NCBI GenBank assembly: GCA_013214355.1
Contig: JABSSL010000002.1
Location: 62,001-126,000, forward strand
From: Saprospiraceae bacterium
GTDB taxonomy: Bacteria; Bacteroidota; Bacteroidia; Chitinophagales; Saprospiraceae
Length of the DNA stretch: 64,000 bases
Reading direction: 5' to 3'
Positions within the stretch are counted from its first letter, which is position 1; each line of letters opens with the position of its first letter. The notes beneath the pieces were generated by a model. The model was given only the letters and a program-made list of their open reading frames with translations, searched no databases and was not told the DNA's origin. Shown here one piece after another: positions 521 to 13,743 of the stretch. Position numbers and translations under genes: made by a program.

Positions 521-3145
521 TTATCTAAAGCGAAAGTTAAAAGTGAGCAGGAAGTATTGAGTAAGTGTATTCCATTGCCTTTGCATCAAAAAATTGGTGT
601 CTCCGATTCTTTGAAGCCCCGTATATTGATTCAGCAGGTCGAAACCACTAAGGGTAAGAGAGCCCTTTTCTGCTTGCAGGAAGAAATAACTGATATTGGC
701 ACTTATTAATGGAACACTAACCGCCTCATCAAAGCTTCTGGCATTGTAATTTACAATATTGGCTCTAGCCTCAAAATTCCATTTTTGAGTGGGTGTATAT
801 CGTAGATTCCCAGTGTAGCTGGTATTTAGGTAGATATTGTTTTGATCTTGCGCGATGGAGAATTTTGTTTCCGTCAGACTTATAGCAGCGCTTAATCTTA
901 TGGCAAAAATATCGTTCCTGCGATTTTCTATTGCGACATCAAGGCTATGGGTGAAGTTGGTGTTGATGTTTTCTTTTTGGTTGATAAAGACGATGCTTCT
1001 ATTCCAATTTTCATTGGAGGTAATATTCAGGTCGAGTCCCAGACTTCGTATCGGGGTGGAAAAGTCTAGGTAAGTGTTCAGGTTAACGTCATTGTCTACA
1101 TTGATGGGTTGACTTATCTTGACGAGCTCATCATTGATGCTTTGAGCCCATCTAATCTTGTCCTTTGTGTAATCACCTCCAAGGCGAAAGGACACAGACG
1201 TAAAGGAAAACTGATCAAACAACGTCCAACTGGTAGAAAGTCGATGCCTTTGTTCTGGAGCAAGGTTTGGATTGCCTTGGATAACATTCAAAGGGTTTAC
1301 TACATTGCGTACAGGAATTAGCTGGATGACAGTAGGCATATTGACTGTGCTAGCATAATTGATATTTATGCGTCTGCCGCTGCGGTATTCATTTCGATAA
1401 CTTATGGTAGGTGTCCAGAAAAAGTAGGTCTGCTGCTGAAAGCTGGATTGATTTAGAAGTTTATTGAAGTTATTGACAACCGCCATTAATTGTAGGTTGA
1501 ACTGAGCTTTTTTTCCAACTCGATTTAGGGTGAGGCTTGGCCAAAAGAATCTTTGTTGAGTGTTAAATTCTGGAATCTCAATTTCCTCTAATTCACTCCG
1601 ATCATTTATAAATCCTTCACCGCGATCTAAACCACTGTTTTCTACACCTATCCTTGCTCCTATCCCCATCGACCAGGAAGGGTTTAGTTTTTGTAAGAGA
1701 GTGGGTTCCAGCGCAAGGAAGAGTCGATCTTCATCGTTGCGTTGAATTTGTTGTAGTACTTCTTCGCTCTGTGGGTTGAAAAATCGGGTAGTATTTATCC
1801 AGTCTAGATGATTAGCATTTTCTTGGAGCGTACTCTGGAATTCTGTCTTGAACTGGGTTCTATCCTCATTGAATTTGGCGATGTAGGTTGCTCTTGACCA
1901 CAGATATAAGTTGTCGGAGACATCCTGGGTTGTATTATCTAGGGCATTGACTGCTTTTTCTTGGCTTTGAGTTGAGGTAAGGGTTTGGGTGAAAATATCA
2001 CTGGTTCGAATATTAGCTCCGCCGTCAAAGACGAGCCGCTGTTGCTTATTGAAACTGTGGCGCATGCCGAAGTTCAATTTGTGTGGACGATCTGTGTCCG
2101 TCTCCGTGATATCCTGATTTTGTTCGAAAGTAATATCAGAGAGGAAGTTCTCGGTATAGACTTCTTCCACTAGATCCTTAATTCGTCGATTACCGAGGTA
2201 GCTTAGGAAGTAGCGATTTTGACTACTCGGATTATAGGAGAGGTTGAGTCCTCCTGCTAAGGCCTCATTAATACCTTTGTTATTTAGGCCAAATTGCTGG
2301 TTGTCCTTATTGGTGAAGCCGAATTCATTGATGTTGTTGTAGCTACCTAGTAGCGCATGTTGTGTCTTTGGGGTAAAACGGTAGATTTTGGCTTCCAGCC
2401 TATAGGTTTCTTCCGTACCTGCCCCCGCAGCAAGCTCGCCAAAGTATCCCTTTTTATGATCTTCCTTAAGCTTGAGGTTAATGGTTTTCTCTCGAATCCC
2501 ATCGTCTATGCCTGAAAATAGGGCCTCTTCGGTCTTACGATCAATAACCTGGACCTTGCTCAATGCCTTAGCTGGTAGGTTTTTGGTGGCCACCTTGGGG
2601 TCTTCGTCAAAGAATTCTTTCCCATCTACTAAGACCTTGACCACTTCTTCCCCTTCTGCCTTGATATTCCCGGAGTTATCTACCTCTACTCCCGGAAGTT
2701 GCTTCAGGACCTCTTCAGCTGCTGCTCCAGGCCTGGTCTTAAAAGCCCTGACATCAAATTCCAGTGTGTCATTTTTGAATTTAATCGGGATCAACTCAGC
2801 TTCTACTACCACTTCTTCCAAGGTGCTGAGAGATAGCTGCCGGTCACCCAAATCTTCTCCGGAAGGTAAGGGGATGTCCAATTGCTCATAGACCGTTTGC
2901 ATGCCTACATAGGAGAACTGGATGAGATAGCTCCCTGCCCTGATACTTTTGATCTGGTATTCCCCTTTAGCATTAGTGACACCGAAATACTTCAGGAGTG
3001 AGTCCCCTGGGTTCAATAGGGCTACGGTAGCGTAATTGAGAGCTTGCTTATCCTGATCCAATACTCTTCCGCTAATAGTATGTTGGGAAAAACCAATGCT
3101 GTACAATAGAATACTCAATCCGAATGCTAAAAAATGCTTTACCAT
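521..3145 (-). CDS. TonB-dependent receptor-like outer-membrane beta-barrel protein
   Basis: The 874-residue product starts with a signal peptide (about 1-20), then a CarboxypepD_reg-like beta-sandwich (about 23-108, TISGRVLDQDKQALNYATV), the usual LEEVVVEA linker and a plug-like domain (about 125-235, with the VLVDGKEFF motif). The rest is a long beta-barrel of alternating aromatic strands that ends in an aromatic/basic strand. This matches the OMP_b-brl_3 receptor group of Bacteroidota rather than classical siderophore receptors. It lies 7 bases downstream of a GLPGLI gene on the same strand, so the two are almost certainly co-transcribed. Its substrate cannot be read from the sequence. No SusD partner is adjacent, which argues against a glycan SusCD pair. 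Confidence 0.9.
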   Translation of the reverse strand: MVKHFLAFGLSILLYSIGFSQHTISGRVLDQDKQALNYATVALLNPGDSLLKYFGVTNAKGEYQIKSIRAGSYLIQFSYVGMQTVYEQLDIPLPSGEDLGDRQLSLSTLEEVVVEAELIPIKFKNDTLEFDVRAFKTRPGAAAEEVLKQLPGVEVDNSGNIKAEGEEVVKVLVDGKEFFDEDPKVATKNLPAKALSKVQVIDRKTEEALFSGIDDGIREKTINLKLKEDHKKGYFGELAAGAGTEETYRLEAKIYRFTPKTQHALLGSYNNINEFGFTNKDNQQFGLNNKGINEALAGGLNLSYNPSSQNRYFLSYLGNRRIKDLVEEVYTENFLSDITFEQNQDITETDTDRPHKLNFGMRHSFNKQQRLVFDGGANIRTSDIFTQTLTSTQSQEKAVNALDNTTQDVSDNLYLWSRATYIAKFNEDRTQFKTEFQSTLQENANHLDWINTTRFFNPQSEEVLQQIQRNDEDRLFLALEPTLLQKLNPSWSMGIGARIGVENSGLDRGEGFINDRSELEEIEIPEFNTQQRFFWPSLTLNRVGKKAQFNLQLMAVVNNFNKLLNQSSFQQQTYFFWTPTISYRNEYRSGRRININYASTVNMPTVIQLIPVRNVVNPLNVIQGNPNLAPEQRHRLSTSWTLFDQFSFTSVSFRLGGDYTKDKIRWAQSINDELVKISQPINVDNDVNLNTYLDFSTPIRSLGLDLNITSNENWNRSIVFINQKENINTNFTHSLDVAIENRRNDIFAIRLSAAISLTETKFSIAQDQNNIYLNTSYTGNLRYTPTQKWNFEARANIVNYNARSFDEAVSVPLISANISYFFLQAEKGSLTLSGFDLLNQYTGLQRIGDTNFLMQRQWNTLTQYFLLTFNFRFR

Positions 3146-4130: not shown

Positions 4131-5030
4131 TCAGAAAATCCTCTCCTGAAACTTTTGGATAATGCTTTCAATAGAACCGGCAGCCTGCTTTTGATACTCA
4201 AGACAATTGAGGCAACCTAGGTAGTTCTTTTCTTTGTACTGTTGCAATACGCGAGGATAACAATCGTGATACTTCCTGGCTTCTTTATAAATATCTGGGC
4301 CAAGCCAAAATTTATTTTGTTCGAGGATCATATCTGCCTTCTGATAGTCTAGATATACGATTTGCATTTTTTGTAAGAGATCGTCATGAATATCTTCTTT
4401 CAGCTTCCCGTTTTCTAGCAAGGGCTTTAGTTCTGAGTGCACGAGCAGATTATAGAGGTTGTCGAGATTTCGGGTGTACTTAAAGCAACCCAAGACACCT
4501 TTAGCGGCCGGGGATACCTCACTGAAATCAACTAGATTAATGATGAATTCTTCTATCACTTTGAATAGTTGATTTTCGAAGGTGTACATGGAAGTCCAGC
4601 ACTCGCCCAGCCGATTGATTCGCTCTTTGGCAATTTCGATGTTGAGGGAAAGTTTAGCACTGAGCTTGGAGACCTGCAATTTGATGTCCTCAATCTTTTC
4701 GAAGTTCAACTTCAAGGTTCGTTGAATATCGAGGTTCTGGAGAAATTGCAGAAAATCATCGATGATCCTACTTAGGGTAGTAGCTCCTACTTCATCAGTG
4801 ATGAAATTTTTTCGCTTATCGTCTTTGTATTTATTGTATCTCGCCTCCAGATGCGTGACCCGGATTCGATAGCTATCATCTCCGATTAAACCAATCAATG
4901 TATTGGTTTCCTGAAAGGCTTCTTCCAGCCTAAATTTTGCTACATGCTTCCGAATGGAGGCACAATATTCGTGCAGTTCATTATCACTTAGTTTTTTCGG
5001 GTTTAGTTTTATGGGGCCTATGACTTTCAT
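4131..5030 (-). CDS. Helical cytosolic protein with an EAD11-like N-terminal domain
   Basis: The 299-residue protein has no signal peptide or membrane segment. Residues about 25-98 read as a three-helix segment: an E-A-F-x-E-T-N-x-L-I-G-L-I helix, a helix carrying H-L-E-A-R-Y-N-K-Y-K-D-D, and a helix after N-F-I-T-D-E-V. This order (short acidic helix, long helix with L-x-x-R-Y-N, then the turn before the last helix) resembles effector-associated domain 11 (EAD11). That adaptor is found in bacterial conflict and signalling proteins and is common in filamentous Bacteroidota. The remainder (about 100-299) is all-helical and not recognised; four cysteines cluster at the C-terminal half, including a CLNCLEY segment. 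No EAD-bearing partner or effector gene is adjacent. The EAD assignment is pattern recognition only. Confidence 0.6.
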   Translation of the reverse strand: MKVIGPIKLNPKKLSDNELHEYCASIRKHVAKFRLEEAFQETNTLIGLIGDDSYRIRVTHLEARYNKYKDDKRKNFITDEVGATTLSRIIDDFLQFLQNLDIQRTLKLNFEKIEDIKLQVSKLSAKLSLNIEIAKERINRLGECWTSMYTFENQLFKVIEEFIINLVDFSEVSPAAKGVLGCFKYTRNLDNLYNLLVHSELKPLLENGKLKEDIHDDLLQKMQIVYLDYQKADMILEQNKFWLGPDIYKEARKYHDCYPRVLQQYKEKNYLGCLNCLEYQKQAAGSIESIIQKFQERIF

Positions 5031-5196: not shown

Positions 5197-5988
5197 TTAC
5201 AAACCACTTTCTTCAGGATAGAGCTTCGGCAACAGCAAGGATAAGTTATGATACTCCTGCGAGCAGTGGTGAAACATCTTAGTTCCGATTTCTTTCGGGA
5301 GGAGTTGGCGCTTTACAAAGGGCTTGTTCAAGATAGCATTCAGAATAGCTTGTGCGATTCCACCCATGCGATAGATCTGGTGACCAATCCAAAATCGACT
5401 GCGCATTTCCACACCTGCTTCAGTAGCTCGCACGAAATGACACATCTCGGTGGCCCACACGCCTTTATTCGGAGCGCCTACTCTAGCGCAGATCACAGTC
5501 TGTTCCTCGGAGTGCAGCTGACTTCCGTCAAACCCAAAGTCGTCCGGCGACATGAAATCAATAAGTATTTTATCCTTCCCCACCCCTACATCTTCGGTTA
5601 CTAGATGAGTGCTTAGGTGCAAGCGTTCCCTAAAAGTCTTACCCTCATCATGATAATGTCCTTTGAAATCAGCAGAAATATCATAATGCATATCTGGATA
5701 CCAAATCTGATATCGTGGCCCCTCAGCAGCATGCCACCAGAACCACCAATCGATCATGTCAATACTCACCTGTGGCATTTGGGTGAGTACAGAGACAAAA
5801 GTACTGCCGTCTGCTTCTCTCCGAAATCCATTTTCTCCGATCAGATACCCCGGGGCTAAAAGTTTATTGATTTGACTTCTAGGGAGAACGGAGGCGCGGT
5901 CCAGCTCCTGACCTTGTTCAAGAATAGCAGCATGTTCGCTGGGAATGGGAGCATTGGGCGATTGTAAATATTTTGTATAAGAAGTCAT
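5197..5988 (-). CDS. PhlG-like (2,4-diacetylphloroglucinol hydrolase family) metalloenzyme
   Basis: The 263-residue product shows the hallmark WWFWWH (81-86), a following His (H101 in YPDMHYD), a glutamate at 132 and a C-terminal H-x3-E pair (H241/E245 in HHCSQEYH). In PhlG, a zinc-dependent hydrolase that cleaves a C-C bond of acylated phloroglucinols, the zinc is held by an equivalent His/Glu set, so the metal site looks intact. The length fits the family. It is cytoplasmic, with no signal peptide. It starts 10 bases after a sulfatase on the same strand, so the two likely form an operon. The substrate need not be diacetylphloroglucinol; any acyl-phenol or related ring compound is possible. 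Confidence 0.8.
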   Translation of the reverse strand: MTSYTKYLQSPNAPIPSEHAAILEQGQELDRASVLPRSQINKLLAPGYLIGENGFRREADGSTFVSVLTQMPQVSIDMIDWWFWWHAAEGPRYQIWYPDMHYDISADFKGHYHDEGKTFRERLHLSTHLVTEDVGVGKDKILIDFMSPDDFGFDGSQLHSEEQTVICARVGAPNKGVWATEMCHFVRATEAGVEMRSRFWIGHQIYRMGGIAQAILNAILNKPFVKRQLLPKEIGTKMFHHCSQEYHNLSLLLPKLYPEESGL

Positions 5989-5998
5989 TGGCTTAGAG

Positions 5999-7594
5999 TT
6001 ATGGATTGGTAGATCGGGTACGGATTTGTTGAATTAGCTTGAAGCCTACTCCAATTACTAAGGAAAGGAAGGCAAGCATGATCAAGGGGAAGAGGTATAA
6101 ATTGGGGTGCAATGGCCCTGCGATTTTGCCTTCTACCCCAGCGAAGGGTTCACGATCTTCCTCTCCGCCAAAAAGATCTGGGTCCACAAAAACCTTCCAT
6201 AGAGGATCATCTACTGTTTCGCCTCTAGGGAAATCCTGTAAGGCAGCTTTCAAGTCACCAACGATCTCTGGATGTTCTAGCGCCAGGTCCATCGCTTCAG
6301 TGGGATCTTCTGCTGGTTTATACAATTCGGCTTCTCCGTCGTTCGGTAATACCAGTTTCCAGTCACCTTGGAAATAGGCTTGGTTAAATCGAGAAACGGC
6401 TATAAAATCCCTGGACGGCGCAGCTGCTTCCTGTCTTAGATACGGCCATTGGCTGATACCATCGGCAGCTGTATGATCAAAGGAATTGAAGCCAGCTGCA
6501 CTGGCCAAGGTGGGTAGGACATCATTCACTGTAATCCGCTGATCGATTTTTTGTTGGTTAAGAAATTTCGGAGCGTAAATGAAGGCCGGTACCCGTATTC
6601 CACCTTCGTAAGCTGTATTCTTCCCTCCTTTTAATGGACTATTGTCCGCTGCACCATTTACGACATTATCCCGAACGAACTCGAGGAAAGGAAAGGGGAT
6701 GGGTTCACCAAATAATTTAGTCAATCTCGCCAGAGGTTTTAAGACAGCATCTGGTGATCCTGCTTTATTTTGCCCTCCATTATCGCTCATCACCCAGATG
6801 ATGGTATTATCCAGTTGTCCACTGGATTTCAAGGCTTCATAAATCTGCTGAATGCCATCGTCTACTTCCGTTACCATGGCTGCGTGGAGCCGTCTGTTCT
6901 CATTGTCAAGTTGCTGATAAGTAGCTACGGTTTGAGCAGGCGCCTCATTTGGCATATGCGGAGCAGCATAGCATAGTTCCAAGAAGAAAGGTTGGGTAGA
7001 CTTTTGATTTTGAATAATCTTGATCGCTTCATCTGTTAACAAATGAGTGGAATAGCCTTCTTCCCTAATGGTTTCTCCATTTCGCTGCCAATCTAATCCG
7101 CCTCCATGGATATGATCATAGTGTCCGACTCCCCCCGTCAAATAGCCATAAAAGTGGTCAAATCCTCGGTTATAAGGCCAATACTCTTTTTTGAAGCGCC
7201 CCAAATGCCATTTGCCAATTAGGTTAGTGCTATATCCCTTTTCCTGAAAGTATTGTGGCATTATTTTCTCAGATAAGGGCAGGCCCTTCTCATTATTCTT
7301 CCCTAAGGGGTTGACAAAACCTAAGCGTACTGCTGCCTTACCGGTCATTAAAGCACTGCGCGTGGGTGAGCAAGCTGGATGAACGTAAAACCGATCTAGC
7401 TCTACACCCTCTTTTGCCAATCTATCCATTGTCGGAGTACGAATTTCACTGCCATGATAACTGACGTCATTCCATCCCATATCATCAATCACGATCAGAA
7501 GGACATTGGGAAGTGTATCTCTCATTATTTCCTGAGCTATCAGTGATCCGCTGATGCTAAAAAAGGCAACTATGCTTAGCAAATGAGGTTTCAT
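5999..7594 (-). CDS. Sulfatase (type I, formylglycine-dependent) with C-terminal membrane anchor
   Basis: The 531-residue alkaline-phosphatase-fold enzyme has a signal peptide (about 1-20), metal-binding DD at 37-38 (LLIVIDDMGWND) and the formylglycine consensus C75-S-P-T-R79 followed by SALMTG. CSPTR is an accepted variant of CxPSR, matured by a formylglycine-generating enzyme that is not in this window. WHLGR and the later SDNGG motif are also present. The C-terminus carries a hydrophobic stretch (about 499-520) and a short basic tail (QQIRTRS), which predicts a membrane anchor and is unusual for secreted arylsulfatases. It is the first gene of the unit with the PhlG-like gene, and a 23-bp palindrome sits just upstream. 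It hydrolyses a sulfate ester of unknown identity. Confidence 0.9.
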   Translation of the reverse strand: MKPHLLSIVAFFSISGSLIAQEIMRDTLPNVLLIVIDDMGWNDVSYHGSEIRTPTMDRLAKEGVELDRFYVHPACSPTRSALMTGKAAVRLGFVNPLGKNNEKGLPLSEKIMPQYFQEKGYSTNLIGKWHLGRFKKEYWPYNRGFDHFYGYLTGGVGHYDHIHGGGLDWQRNGETIREEGYSTHLLTDEAIKIIQNQKSTQPFFLELCYAAPHMPNEAPAQTVATYQQLDNENRRLHAAMVTEVDDGIQQIYEALKSSGQLDNTIIWVMSDNGGQNKAGSPDAVLKPLARLTKLFGEPIPFPFLEFVRDNVVNGAADNSPLKGGKNTAYEGGIRVPAFIYAPKFLNQQKIDQRITVNDVLPTLASAAGFNSFDHTAADGISQWPYLRQEAAAPSRDFIAVSRFNQAYFQGDWKLVLPNDGEAELYKPAEDPTEAMDLALEHPEIVGDLKAALQDFPRGETVDDPLWKVFVDPDLFGGEEDREPFAGVEGKIAGPLHPNLYLFPLIMLAFLSLVIGVGFKLIQQIRTRSTNP

Positions 7595-7622
7595 ATCTAT
7601 TGGGTTTATTTAGGATATGTAA

Positions 7623-7645
7623 TTTATTTAATACTATTAAATAAA
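7623..7645. promoter_or_regulatory. 23-bp perfect palindrome, candidate TetR operator of the sulfatase gene
   Basis: Eleven-base arms (TTTATTTAATA and its complement) flank one central base, 28 bp upstream of the sulfatase start. The core TTTAATA-N-TATTAAA is repeated upstream of the TetR gene at 8278-8294. Two copies of one palindrome at the regulator and its neighbour are the expected layout for a locally acting TetR repressor. Binding is inferred. Confidence 0.7.
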
Positions 7646-7668
7646 GATTTAAAAAAAATTGACCTTTC

Positions 7669-8262
7669 TTAGATTTGCTGAATGTATCTACTCAAGGTTT
7701 GCTCAAACAGTTGTTGAAAGGATTGATCATCCCCAATCGGAATTCGATTATTCATTTTGATAGAAATAAAGCCATGAATTAAACTATGAAACCCTTGGTA
7801 CACTTGGAAGGCTTCCTCATCACTTGTAATTTCTGGGTTGATCGCTTTGATAGTGTCTTGCATGATCTTGATATTGGCAAGAATGAGTTCTAGCTCTAGT
7901 TTTTTCTGACGGATATGAAACATCAAATCGTACAATTCTTCATGCTCTACCGAGAAATTCCAGAACTGCATGCCCATTTCAAAGAGTTTTTTGCGATTGT
8001 CATTGAAGGTTCTGGCTTCGATAATCCGTAGCTTAGTACCGATGATGGTTGACCCTCTTTGACATAAATGGAACAAAATATCATCCTTGTTTTCAAAGTA
8101 GTGATAGATATTTGGCGGGGTGTAGCGCATTATTTGGGCGATCTTATTGACAGACACCATTCCCCAATTCTTCTTTTCCCGCATTAAGTCTACCGCCGTA
8201 TTCAAAACCGTCCGCTTAAAGTTCTCTATATCTTCAGCTCGTCGAATCTTGTTAAGCTTCAT
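7669..8262 (-). CDS. TetR/AcrR family transcriptional regulator
   Basis: The 197-residue protein has a TetR-type helix-turn-helix at about 32-68 (MVSVNKIAQIMRYTPPNIYH followed by YFENKDDILFHL), which is the family signature. An all-helical ligand-binding and dimerisation domain fills the rest. It reads towards the sulfatase/PhlG-like genes, with 74 bases between its stop and the sulfatase start. A palindrome lies 16 bases upstream of its own start and an almost identical, longer one precedes the sulfatase. That suggests autorepression plus control of the downstream pair, with a small-molecule inducer related to their substrate. The inducer cannot be deduced. Confidence 0.92.
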   Translation of the reverse strand: MKLNKIRRAEDIENFKRTVLNTAVDLMREKKNWGMVSVNKIAQIMRYTPPNIYHYFENKDDILFHLCQRGSTIIGTKLRIIEARTFNDNRKKLFEMGMQFWNFSVEHEELYDLMFHIRQKKLELELILANIKIMQDTIKAINPEITSDEEAFQVYQGFHSLIHGFISIKMNNRIPIGDDQSFQQLFEQTLSRYIQQI

Positions 8263-8277
8263 GGATAGTGTTAAATT

Positions 8278-8294
8278 ATTTAATAGTATTAAAT
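8278..8294. promoter_or_regulatory. 17-bp palindrome, candidate autoregulatory TetR operator
   Basis: ATTTAATA and its complement flank a single G, 16 bp upstream of the TetR start. The core is the same as in the palindrome before the sulfatase (7623-7645). The position suits repression of the regulator's own promoter. Confidence 0.68.
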
Positions 8295-9035: not shown

Positions 9036-9911
9036 TTAATTTAGATGTAGTCGATTTTTCCAATTGACGTCATCCAGTATTTGAAGCAAGAAATTCTTTT
9101 TGGAGAAGTCTGTTTTATAACTATGATCGCGATGTAACTCTACATACTTAATTGTGGATTCATCTACCAGGTAATTAGCATCCTCTTCTAATTGTTGACG
9201 AAAAGTGGAGAATTCCTCTCGATTGTAAAGTAGCTGCTTGGCATCAATGATGCCCGCTTCCAATGAAATGGTCACCTTCTTATGGCAGCGACAAGGGTTA
9301 GCCTTGTCAATCAAACCACATTTTTTTTGCATAAAGTGACTCAGGTCTTTCCTTGCTTTGCTCAGCTTCATTCTGAAATTGGCCTTACTTAATGCCATAA
9401 TTTCAGATCCAACGGTATGATCTGCACCAAACATCTCACCGATAATGAAGATCATGCGTTGTTGTTTGGTCAGGCAAAGCAACATGCCTGAGAGGCAGGT
9501 TAGGCGTAACTCTCTAGTAATGGCTGCTTTTTCCTGCTTTTCGAATACTGTTAGTTCCACGTTTGGAATAGCATCTAGAGCTGCTCCCAGTTCCTGAAAG
9601 TTGGCAGCAAATTGCTTAGCCGGTTTTTTTTGATCATTCAGGAAATGGTGTCGTACTATACTATAGGCCCAAGTACGGAAGGAACTGTCAAAGTTGAATT
9701 TTTCGAGATTGGAAATGATCTTGATCAAAGCTTCTTGACTTAGATCCGCTGCTTCATCTGGATTACCAACCATCTTCCAAGCTATATTATAAACATAGGG
9801 CTGATGTCGACTAAGCAATTCGTTTAATGCTTCCTTTTGGCCATCTAATATTCTTTTGATGAGTTGTTTGTCGGATTTGTCCTGGTCGGTCAAGTTAGAA
9901 AAGGGATTCAT
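9036..9911 (-). CDS. ECF-type RNA polymerase sigma factor with Cys-rich C-terminal extension
   Basis: The 291-residue protein has a clear sigma region 2 (about 28-96, with DLSQEALIKIISNLEKF and FRTWAYSIVRHHF) and a less typical region 4 (about 140-192). An extension follows that starts C198-G-L-I and contains N-P-C207-R-C209-H210, a possible metal-binding knot. It then continues for about 80 residues ending in a segment rich in His, Asp and Asn. The extension makes it longer than the usual ~180 residues. No anti-sigma gene is adjacent, and the extension could take over regulation. Its start ATG overlaps by four bases the stop of a truncated flavin-monooxygenase frame, so translation may be coupled. 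Confidence 0.85.
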   Translation of the reverse strand: MNPFSNLTDQDKSDKQLIKRILDGQKEALNELLSRHQPYVYNIAWKMVGNPDEAADLSQEALIKIISNLEKFNFDSSFRTWAYSIVRHHFLNDQKKPAKQFAANFQELGAALDAIPNVELTVFEKQEKAAITRELRLTCLSGMLLCLTKQQRMIFIIGEMFGADHTVGSEIMALSKANFRMKLSKARKDLSHFMQKKCGLIDKANPCRCHKKVTISLEAGIIDAKQLLYNREEFSTFRQQLEEDANYLVDESTIKYVELHRDHSYKTDFSKKNFLLQILDDVNWKNRLHLN

Positions 9912-10291
9912 ACGAGCTTCTTGATTAATGAGACATCCTGATAGATTTCAGGCTTTGAACTGATGTTATTCGGACCAATGTTTAAGTCAGTTCTTTGATT
10001 AAAGGTATCACTTTGGATCCAATCAATTGAATCGGCTGCGCTTAAGACGGTAACTGCACTACGCAACTTGATACGCTGGGTGCGTGCCGCTGCTGCTGCC
10101 AGGATAATGGCCGGAGCGGAATCCAAAAATTCTTTGCGATAATGCTCTCCCATTCCAAACACATCGATGCCAACTTTGTCAGCTAGCTCTATTCTTTGCA
10201 AGAGCTCGGCCAGAGCTTGGGCATTGTCGTCGTGTCGCAAGGTCTCGCCTTGGCTAGGTACCGCCGCGAAAGTATCTACTCCTATCTCCAT
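9908..10291 (-). pseudogene. Truncated LLM-class flavin-dependent (luciferase-like) monooxygenase
   Basis: Residues 1-87 match the N-terminus of bacterial luciferase-like monooxygenases: an initial MEIGVDTFAAVP, then LAELLQRIELADKVGIDVFG, GEHYRKEFLDSAP and RIKLRSAVTVLSAAD. The family is normally about 330-350 residues. Here the similarity stops after AAD and is followed by about 40 unrelated residues and a stop, so two thirds of the barrel are missing. The protein cannot fold as a functional enzyme. The 3' end overlaps the sigma-factor start as ATGA. The best explanation is a deletion that joined the gene's 5' part, perhaps with its promoter, to the sigma gene. Confidence 0.75.
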
Positions 10292-12105: not shown

Positions 12106-13743
12106 CTACTCAGAGGCAGCTACAATGGCTGGCCAGTTGCTAGGGATTTCTAGTATTTGCTGACTAGCAGATAGTAGTTTTTTTAGCTCAGAATAAAGGA
12201 TGTCTTGTACTGGTATTGCCTTGTCGATGGCCAGGGAAGCTGCTGCTGCTACGCTTTGTCCCATAATCATGAAAGTTGGTACGATTCTGATGCTACCGTA
12301 GCCGATATAGCTAGAAGATAGGCAGGTAGGGGTGAGGATGTTCGTGCACTCTGATGTCTTTGGCACTACCGCCCGATAGGCAATCTTAAAGGGTTTCCAA
12401 TCTTCATTACCGCCTACATGCGTGAAGCCTTCATTATAGGCAAAGCCATCCTTCACGATCCTTCTGGCGTGATGTACATCTGGTGGCCACCAAGCAATAG
12501 CAATGGGATCAGTGACGGTGTCTGGCTGATTCTTAGCTGTATGGTGTTCCGTAATGATGTAATCGGAAACCATGCGTCGTCCGCTGCGGATATACAATCT
12601 TCGGGGCCAGTTCCCATTGTCTGTAAATTCATCTTTGGGTAAACCCCAATCGGTCCAGTTGGCACGAGTCAGGCTATCGACGCTCGGGTCATGTTGCAAA
12701 AACCAGAGTAAACCCAGCGTGAAATCTCGATGATACTGAATGATACTATCCTGCTGGGCATAATTGCCAGTAGGGTATTGCCAATTCTCACCGTATAAAT
12801 TGGCGGAAAGATCATGCCAACTGCCGATGTCCGTTTTACCATTATGGCGATTTGGGTAGGGTTTAAATAACTTCCCGCCTGCCTTGAGATACCGTCGGTA
12901 GATCTCATATTGTTCCGGGTCATAGTTAGGCGGTTGACTAATGTGGATGCGATTTTCTTCGATATTAGTTAAGCACATTCGGAAACAGAAGCCTTGGATG
13001 TACCGGCTCGGTTCGCCGTGTTGTCCTAAACTGCCAGTTTGTATGGTAGGGATTAATCCACTAGTAGAATCTCCCTCAATTTGGTAAGGGTCAACTTGTA
13101 CTGAAAATTGTCGGAAGGTGTTTTCCCCCTGCACACCATTGAGCTGTTCTCCATAAAGCGCATTTCCTTCTCGGATCGTCTCTGTACTTACCCCAGCCAG
13201 GTTTAGTAGATGGCCCTCAATGGAAGCGTCAATGTATATCTTGGCTTTGATTTGGGTTCCGTCTTCCAAGGTGATGGAAGAAATCGAAGTGCTTACCATC
13301 TCCACTCCATTGGTCTCCTTTATTCTTTGTTTGCGGATAAGCCGGATATTCTCTTCTTGGGCGAGTAGACTGTCAATTGTCTTTTCGGCAACGGAGGGTT
13401 CATATTTAGAATACCATTTTGGATCGGTGAAATCTGGGGTTAAACCATATTGTTTTTCCAAGACTATATAAAATTCCCTGGCTATTCCGCCAATCACGTG
13501 GGCATTGCCAAAGCGAATGTCCTTCCCCAAGCCTTCCACCAGCATGCCTCCTGGATGTCCTGTGGGTTCCAACAGCACAACACGCTTGCCCAGTCTAGCG
13601 GCTTGAATGGCTGCGGTGAAGCCAGCCTCACTTCCCCCTAGGATGAAGATGTCTGTTTGGAGAATGGGTTCGGAAGAGGTAGGAGAGGAGGAGCAGCTGA
13701 GCAGGATTAGGCTAAGTATAAGGCCAATTATCTTGGGGTACAT
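12106..13743 (-). CDS. FAD-dependent oxidoreductase lipoprotein
   Basis: The 545-residue product has a lipobox (LLSC, cysteine 17) and then an FAD-binding Rossmann motif (GGSEAG at 36-41, with the acceptor Glu of VVLLEP at about 59). The phrase HPGGMLVEGLG is typical of the FAD_oxidored (PF12831) group. A second conserved part is the C-terminal GYGSIRIVPTFMIMGQSVAA. Members are often encoded with polysaccharide-degradation genes and sometimes mislabelled xanthan lyase; their substrates are mostly unknown. The enzyme should sit on the outside of the inner or on the outer membrane. It converges on the coiled-coil gene at 11231 and is followed at its start by a two-component system on the same strand. 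Confidence 0.85.
   Translation of the reverse strand: MYPKIIGLILSLILLSCSSSPTSSEPILQTDIFILGGSEAGFTAAIQAARLGKRVVLLEPTGHPGGMLVEGLGKDIRFGNAHVIGGIAREFYIVLEKQYGLTPDFTDPKWYSKYEPSVAEKTIDSLLAQEENIRLIRKQRIKETNGVEMVSTSISSITLEDGTQIKAKIYIDASIEGHLLNLAGVSTETIREGNALYGEQLNGVQGENTFRQFSVQVDPYQIEGDSTSGLIPTIQTGSLGQHGEPSRYIQGFCFRMCLTNIEENRIHISQPPNYDPEQYEIYRRYLKAGGKLFKPYPNRHNGKTDIGSWHDLSANLYGENWQYPTGNYAQQDSIIQYHRDFTLGLLWFLQHDPSVDSLTRANWTDWGLPKDEFTDNGNWPRRLYIRSGRRMVSDYIITEHHTAKNQPDTVTDPIAIAWWPPDVHHARRIVKDGFAYNEGFTHVGGNEDWKPFKIAYRAVVPKTSECTNILTPTCLSSSYIGYGSIRIVPTFMIMGQSVAAAASLAIDKAIPVQDILYSELKKLLSASQQILEIPSNWPAIVAASE

Follow-up and report, generated by a model that had tools for sequence, protein, structure and literature searches.

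Why would a sulfatase gene lie directly ahead of a gene for a carbon-carbon (C-C) hydrolase, in one unit behind a transcriptional regulator? Bacteroidota such as the one studied here can carry many sulfatases, and these are usually ascribed to sulfated polysaccharides. The arrangement occurs in a stretch of 64,000 nucleotides from a Saprospiraceae bacterium (GenBank assembly GCA_013214355.1, contig JABSSL010000002.1, positions 62,001 to 126,000), hereafter the window. The host genome comprises 11.19 Mb in 224 contigs; the nearest named records in a genome scan made from the hydrolase side are 'uncultured Lewinella sp.' and two Saprospiraceae bacteria. An initial annotation had proposed that a formylglycine sulfatase and an enzyme of the phloroglucinol hydrolase (PhlG) family, under the control of a TetR-type regulator, desulfate and then split acylated, possibly phlorotannin-like, phenolics. 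On balance we cautiously favor a reading in which the locus encodes an inducible two-enzyme unit that acts on a sulfated, C-acylated phenolic compound. Each enzyme family is already known; what appears to be new is that the two are paired, and that one clade of sulfatases is tied to aromatic catabolism and PhlG. Neither point was found described in open-licence papers (preprints were outside this scope, and 'PhlG' and 'sulfatase' were not searched in combination), in line with the earlier statement that no described pathway with this pair was known.

The tetR, sulfatase and PhlG-like genes all lie on the minus strand, each as an uninterrupted reading frame (Table 1). The end of tetR is separated from the sulfatase gene by 74 bases, and 10 bases separate the sulfatase stop codon from the PhlG-like start. 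The regulator has a TetR_N helix-turn-helix and a TetR C-terminal domain, both scoring over their Pfam cut-offs. The reading frames, the Pfam scores, the 10-base gap and conservation within the genus confirm that a sulfatase and a PhlG-family enzyme form one unit behind a TetR gene.

Table 1. Features of the sulfatase-PhlG unit, in window positions.
Feature	Positions	Strand	Description
PhlG/phloretin-hydrolase-family C-C hydrolase gene	5197..5988	-	263 aa; PF18089, 229.2 bits (cut-off 22.7)
Formylglycine-type S1 sulfatase gene	5999..7594	-	531 aa; PF00884, 215.1 bits (cut-off 25); CSPTR motif
TetR-family regulator gene	7669..8262	-	197 aa; PF00440, 24.7 bits (cut-off 24); PF13305, 29.4 bits (cut-off 26.8)
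Operator-like palindrome TTTAATASTATTAAA, 15 bp	8279..8293		exact match; 16 bases before the tetR start codon
Palindrome TTTAATASTATTAAA, second copy	7627..7641		exact match; 32 bases before the sulfatase start codon

That the unit may indeed be controlled by TetR is supported by the operator-like palindrome that precedes both tetR and the sulfatase gene. Read on one strand, the two copies disagree at the central base; read on opposite strands, they match exactly. Even with up to two mismatches allowed, these are the only 2 matches in the whole 64 kb, where 0.37 would be expected; two matches were reached in 5 of 100 shuffled sequences. Both copies are kept at the same places in another genome of the genus (G196), and the exact palindrome was found in 5 of 239 loci compared, and all five cover parts of this region in G000 or G196. 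The simplest reading of the paired palindromes is that the regulator would control its own gene as well as the sulfatase-PhlG operon. A precedent for TetR-type control of a PhlG gene is the PhlH-PhlG system of Pseudomonas (PMC8003664).

We then consider what the hydrolase is. By sequence, its nearest solved relatives are the phloretin hydrolase of Mycobacterium abscessus (E 5.6e-30) and then PhlG (6.5e-22). An AlphaFold model built on 43 sequences reached a pLDDT of 94.4, and a fold search with it returned Z scores of 30.7 to 5xey and 27.8 to 3hwp over 245-252 residues, the next chain being thebaine synthase at 11.8; the fold is Bet v1-like, as in PhlG. Residues H101, E132, H241 and E245 align with H129, E160, H270 and E274 of PhlG, which we take to be its metal (zinc) ligands, while H184 corresponds to H214 and Y93 to Y121; none of the six varies in the 43 sequences aligned. 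The numbering offset used for PhlG agrees with the residue numbers from the structural match. Position 154 of PhlG was dropped as a candidate metal ligand, as the residue is N in that numbering. The earlier proposal was to fall if a structural model lacked the zinc site; the presumed ligands are kept in the alignment and the fold in the model. As modeled, the protein is a PhlG-fold C-C hydrolase with a presumed metal site, and its hydropathy profile has no hydrophobic N-terminal peak. There is no support for labeling it a 2,4-diacetylphloroglucinol (DAPG) hydrolase, because it fails the NCBIfam PhlG equivalog NF047887 (86.9 bits against a cut-off of 600) and because N132 and Y229 of PhlG, presumably substrate-positioning residues, are replaced by I104 and F199. 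The same two observations leave the suggested phlorotannin specificity unsupported.

A second PhlG protein is encoded on another contig of the same genome (C208, L024:8287-10422). It has 711 aa, its second half is like FAD_binding_4 oxidases, and a Crp-like gene lies nearby. Its sequence suggests an enzyme that would oxidize a substrate and then cleave a C-C bond.

The sulfatase was likewise compared with its relatives. Residues D37, D38, C75, R79, K128, H130, H213, D271, N272 and K325, which we take to be catalytic, are invariant in 9/9 aligned members, and the genome has 15 matches to the formylglycine-generating enzyme family available for sulfatase maturation. Hydropathy peaks at residues 5 and 499 mark an N-terminal signal-peptide-like stretch and a C-terminal hydrophobic helix; the latter appears as helix 497-528 in a model of low confidence (pLDDT 69.8, 9 sequences), which was for this reason left out of the fold search. 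This helix is common to three Bacteroidota members (the window sulfatase, L156 and L158) and is absent from four other members tested. Compared with the sulfatases found near PhlG genes at L030, L093 and L096, the protein scored 528-785 bits, against at most 226 bits with 29 other sulfatases of its own genome. In a tree it groups with a core set of homologues (support 89), and the 10 control and 5 own-genome sulfatases included fall outside this group. By these sequence comparisons it is a member of a clade distinct from the other sulfatases sampled.

Close homologues of the sulfatase are few. With 3 candidates scored per genome, they were found in at least 1 of 395 genomes of a phylum sample (its own only; E <= 1e-100), in at least 4 of 398 genomes of the family, its own included, and in at least 4 of 390 genomes of the order of NOR5-3, NOR5-3 included. 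At a threshold that takes in an outer group of homologues, at least 18 of 140 genomes of the family of NOR5-3 have one (10 candidates scored per genome). Plasmids hold no close copy of the sulfatase or of the PhlG-like gene (best identities 38.5% and 34.4%).

The main new result, which points to a phenolic substrate, is the company that this clade keeps. Its gammaproteobacterial members often lie among FAD_binding_3 aromatic hydroxylases, VOC-family (PF00903) dioxygenase-like proteins, FAA hydrolases, GST, SDR, TetR and TonB receptors. At 10 of 15 core loci located from the sulfatase, an aromatic hydroxylase, VOC protein or FAA hydrolase is found within 6 kb, and seven of these loci have at least two such markers; 7 of 7 outer loci likewise have at least one. 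By contrast, none of 40 control sulfatases from 10 related genomes has such a marker, or PhlG, within that distance (Fisher p of 1.0e-7 for 10/15 and of 1.1e-8 for 11/15, with PhlG counted as a marker). No sulfatase was recognized at three of the controls, which were counted as zero; against the remaining 37, the p values are 1.9e-7 and 2.3e-8. The choice of markers was made with these loci already in view, although queries from a locus were left out of its own count, and 14 of the 15 core loci come from the order of NOR5-3 and are not independent. The control genomes are 9 of the 14 genomes behind the core loci, plus NOR5-3. Control stretches were picked on long contigs, with a mean flank of 11.0 kb against 8.5 kb for the core, which works against the result. 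One core locus, L192, is a fragment (353 bits), and the window, L026/L027 and the PhlG-first loci L157, L158 and L159, which were listed apart, stand outside the 15. No marker, PhlG included, is present at L156, L184, L186 and L192; at all of these but L186, a contig end cuts off one of the two flanks. TonB, SDR, FAD_binding_4 and GST genes were not counted as evidence, because they are found at control loci too (8, 8, 1 and 1, respectively). The gene company of the clade supports a phenolic-sulfate substrate independently of the PhlG family, and desulfation and splitting of acylated phenolics, as first proposed, is therefore partly supported: in its phenolic part, but not in the phlorotannin part. 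Two outer-group sulfatase genes, L194:2386-5475 and L199:9292-12345, are frames of 1029 and 1017 aa with an extra half, and each lies next to an FAA-hydrolase-like gene.

The conservation of the pair was followed in both directions. Within the genus, G196 keeps the neighborhood, at 95% identity for TetR, 88% for the sulfatase and 89% for the PhlG-like protein, and G121 keeps the sulfatase-PhlG junction up to a contig end. G014, which is 80% complete and the fourth genome in the genus, yielded no match to the PhlG-like protein at E <= 0.001, nor, among the 3 best candidates scored, one to the sulfatase at E <= 1e-90. Further afield, species genomes were scanned for PhlG relatives, and the best 80 of 468 were taken. 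A sulfatase lies within 6 kb at 6 of these 80 loci, and in five of the six it is of the present clade (L026 and L027 of the same genus, L030, L093 and L096); that of L094 is a distant one outside the clade. Regulators near PhlG in the same 80 loci are Crp-like in 18 and TetR in 10. The loci with a clade sulfatase differ in layout: the NOR5-3 locus has TetR, PhlG, an FAD oxidase, an FAA hydrolase, the sulfatase and an MFS gene, that of CC_bin17 has Crp, a PhlG-FAD fusion, a 152-aa frame and the sulfatase, and in PL23a_bin.76 PhlG and the sulfatase are 4.8 kb apart, a loose link. In G1224 (L188), found from the sulfatase side, PhlG, FAD oxidase and sulfatase genes adjoin. Beside these three lies a cyclase-family (PF04199) gene, L188:6392-7327.

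On a PhlG tree of 43 rows, which include 38 of the 80 PhlG-first loci, the link to a sulfatase forces at least four label changes, that is, four separate places, one of them the loose PL23a; the PhlG-linked sulfatases likewise do not form one clade on the sulfatase tree (4 changes). A single origin of the link was put to the test on these two trees, both built quickly and with no bootstrap. Because at least four changes are needed on the PhlG tree, the pairing was gained or lost more than once; the trees do not tell gains from losses.

Several observations weigh against the preferred reading. The nearest PhlG relative outside the genus (66%; L014:14713-16671), in G160 of another genus, lies directly behind a queuine tRNA-ribosyltransferase gene, and no relative of this sulfatase is found on its contig of 16.8 kb, which breaks off 100 bases past the PhlG gene. 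In G738, of the same family, a sulfatase of 64% identity has no PhlG downstream, its upstream side being cut off. Of the 15 sulfatase-first loci, just 1 has PhlG within 6 kb. A phmmer search of the window's 52 open reading frames with the marker queries (E <= 1e-5) found no hydroxylase, VOC dioxygenase or FAA hydrolase; the aromatic context is therefore seen in other organisms only. The solved sulfatases nearest by sequence are sugar sulfatases (N-acetylgalactosamine-4-sulfatase, S1_19 and carrageenan enzymes), and with at least 100 PF00884 segments among the matches listed for the genome, split pieces included, a chance neighbor would not be absurd for one genome. Conservation of the pair is thus mixed: related genomes of the genus retain it and it turns up again in distant lineages, but G160 has the PhlG without the sulfatase and G738 the sulfatase with no PhlG downstream.

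Among the alternatives, the one that survives best, though we hold it to be unlikely, is that the substrate of the hydrolase is a 1,3-dicarbonyl-like compound that is non-aromatic or not strictly phenolic, such as a steroid-like one or a polyketide product. The sulfatase would then remove an alcohol sulfate, and in relatives the freed alcohol would be oxidized to a ketone by an FAD oxidase before cleavage. Indeed, an FAD_binding_4 oxidase is the commonest companion scored in the PhlG survey, lying beside or fused to PhlG, often fused, in 37 of the best 80 loci; the 711-aa protein of the same genome is long enough for such a fusion and similar to one. A Bet v1-like fold accommodates many hydrophobic ligands, and the changes at N132 and Y229 also fit this alternative. 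On the other hand, phmmer found no FAD_binding_4 oxidase among the window's 52 open reading frames, and the sulfatase clade is accompanied by aromatic hydroxylases and VOC proteins.

Action on a sulfated, C-acylated phenolic compound, the reading that we prefer, can be set out as follows. The sulfatase would, as its hydropathy suggests, be exported and stay anchored in the inner membrane through the C-terminal helix, and it would take sulfate off the phenol in the periplasm. The freed acyl-phenol would enter the cell, where it may release TetR from the two putative operator copies and thereby induce tetR together with the sulfatase-PhlG operon. In the cytoplasm, the presumed zinc enzyme of PhlG/phloretin-hydrolase type would then hydrolyze the bond between ring and acyl carbon, as expected from its family, to yield a simpler phenol and a carboxylic acid. 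The same steps could serve self-protection rather than growth, the bacterium, or a competitor, producing a sulfated acyl-phenol that the unit recycles or inactivates, in the way that DAPG is handled by PhlG and its TetR regulator PhlH in Pseudomonas. We regard this as quite improbable. It would follow the PhlH-PhlG logic described in PMC8003664, and no ring-cleavage genes were found in the window; but the nine window proteins scanned against Pfam, three of them the unit's own, include no acyl-phenol biosynthesis gene (the search for such genes covered these nine proteins only), and in relatives the sulfatase sits in catabolic-looking clusters. Least probable in our view is that the genes are chance neighbors, with the sulfatase serving sulfated-polysaccharide use and the PhlG-like gene unrelated: the many PF00884 segments, the sugar sulfatases among the best solved relatives and the unpaired genes of G160 and G738 speak for it, but it is countered by genus-level conservation, the 10-base gap, the palindrome pair, the absence of markers from the control loci and a clade that is distinct and rare in the phylum sample, yet near PhlG at four places of the PhlG tree.

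If a sulfated phenolic is indeed the substrate, flavonoid- or dihydrochalcone-type compounds are as plausible as phlorotannins, because sulfated flavonoids often accumulate in seagrasses (PMC11840769). More tentatively, as a possibility that we rate below the preferred reading itself, the clade may be a dedicated periplasmic phenol-sulfate sulfatase of Bacteroidota and Gammaproteobacteria, a marine entry gate for sulfated aromatics such as seagrass flavonoid sulfates or sulfated algal phenols. Ring-opening (hydroxylase, dioxygenase, FAA hydrolase) or PhlG-type de-acylation, as in the window, would follow as interchangeable modules behind the same sulfatase. If true, a clade that accompanies genes of aromatic catabolism and of PhlG type would serve as a marker in sequence data for the turnover of sulfated phenolics, such as those of seagrasses and algae, and would provide a concrete enzyme set for testing it.

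The surroundings of the unit are mixed. Adjoining the PhlG-like gene is a gene for an effector-associated domain 11 (PF19964) protein (window 4131-5030, minus strand), 87-93% identical in two genomes of the genus. On the other side, between tetR and a sigma-factor gene, a small membrane protein of the Anthrone_oxy family (PF08592; 8492-8956, minus strand) is 90% identical in G196. A luciferase-like monooxygenase frame (9908-10291, minus strand) holds the N-terminal part only (TIGR03858 positions 1-89 of 337) and overlaps the start of the sigma-factor gene; it looks like a remnant, and at the matching place G196 has no such open reading frame of at least 80 aa. An FAD_oxidored (PF12831) protein (12106-13743, minus strand) is absent from the otherwise colinear stretch of G196. 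No SusC/SusD or carbohydrate enzymes were found among the nine Pfam-scanned proteins, a set that leaves out protein 521-3145. Sigma-70-like sites numbered 9, against 8.8 in shuffled sequences, which is no excess, and terminator-like sites 5 against 3.3.

Finally, we compared the unit with known systems. The phloretin hydrolase of M. abscessus (5xe5/5xey) has the same fold over its whole length (245 residues, rmsd 2.1) and shares the presumed metal ligands, the active-site His and the H-x-D-I stretch with the window protein; identity is about 30%, and the window protein has F instead of Y at RSR(Y/F)W. We know of no sulfatase partner of that enzyme. Pseudomonas PhlG (3hwp, 252 residues) with PhlH is alike in fold, in the presumed zinc ligands and in having a TetR regulator with an operator before the gene, the palindromes being the candidate operators here; it differs in sequence (24-25% identity) and in N132 and Y229, and in the window the palindrome precedes the sulfatase that leads the operon. 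The solved S1 sulfatases (1fsu, S1_19 and carrageenan enzymes) share sequence family and catalytic motifs with the window sulfatase. In contrast to them, the window clade often neighbors aromatic-catabolism genes, as 40 other sulfatases do not, and three of its Bacteroidota members have the C-terminal hydrophobic helix. Several gammaproteobacterial ring-cleavage clusters (FAD_binding_3 hydroxylase, VOC dioxygenase-like protein, FAA hydrolase and GST) carry a sulfatase of the same clade, whereas none of their ring-cleavage genes was found among the window's reading frames; in the window unit, PhlG would replace the ring-cleavage enzymes as the C-C cleaving step.

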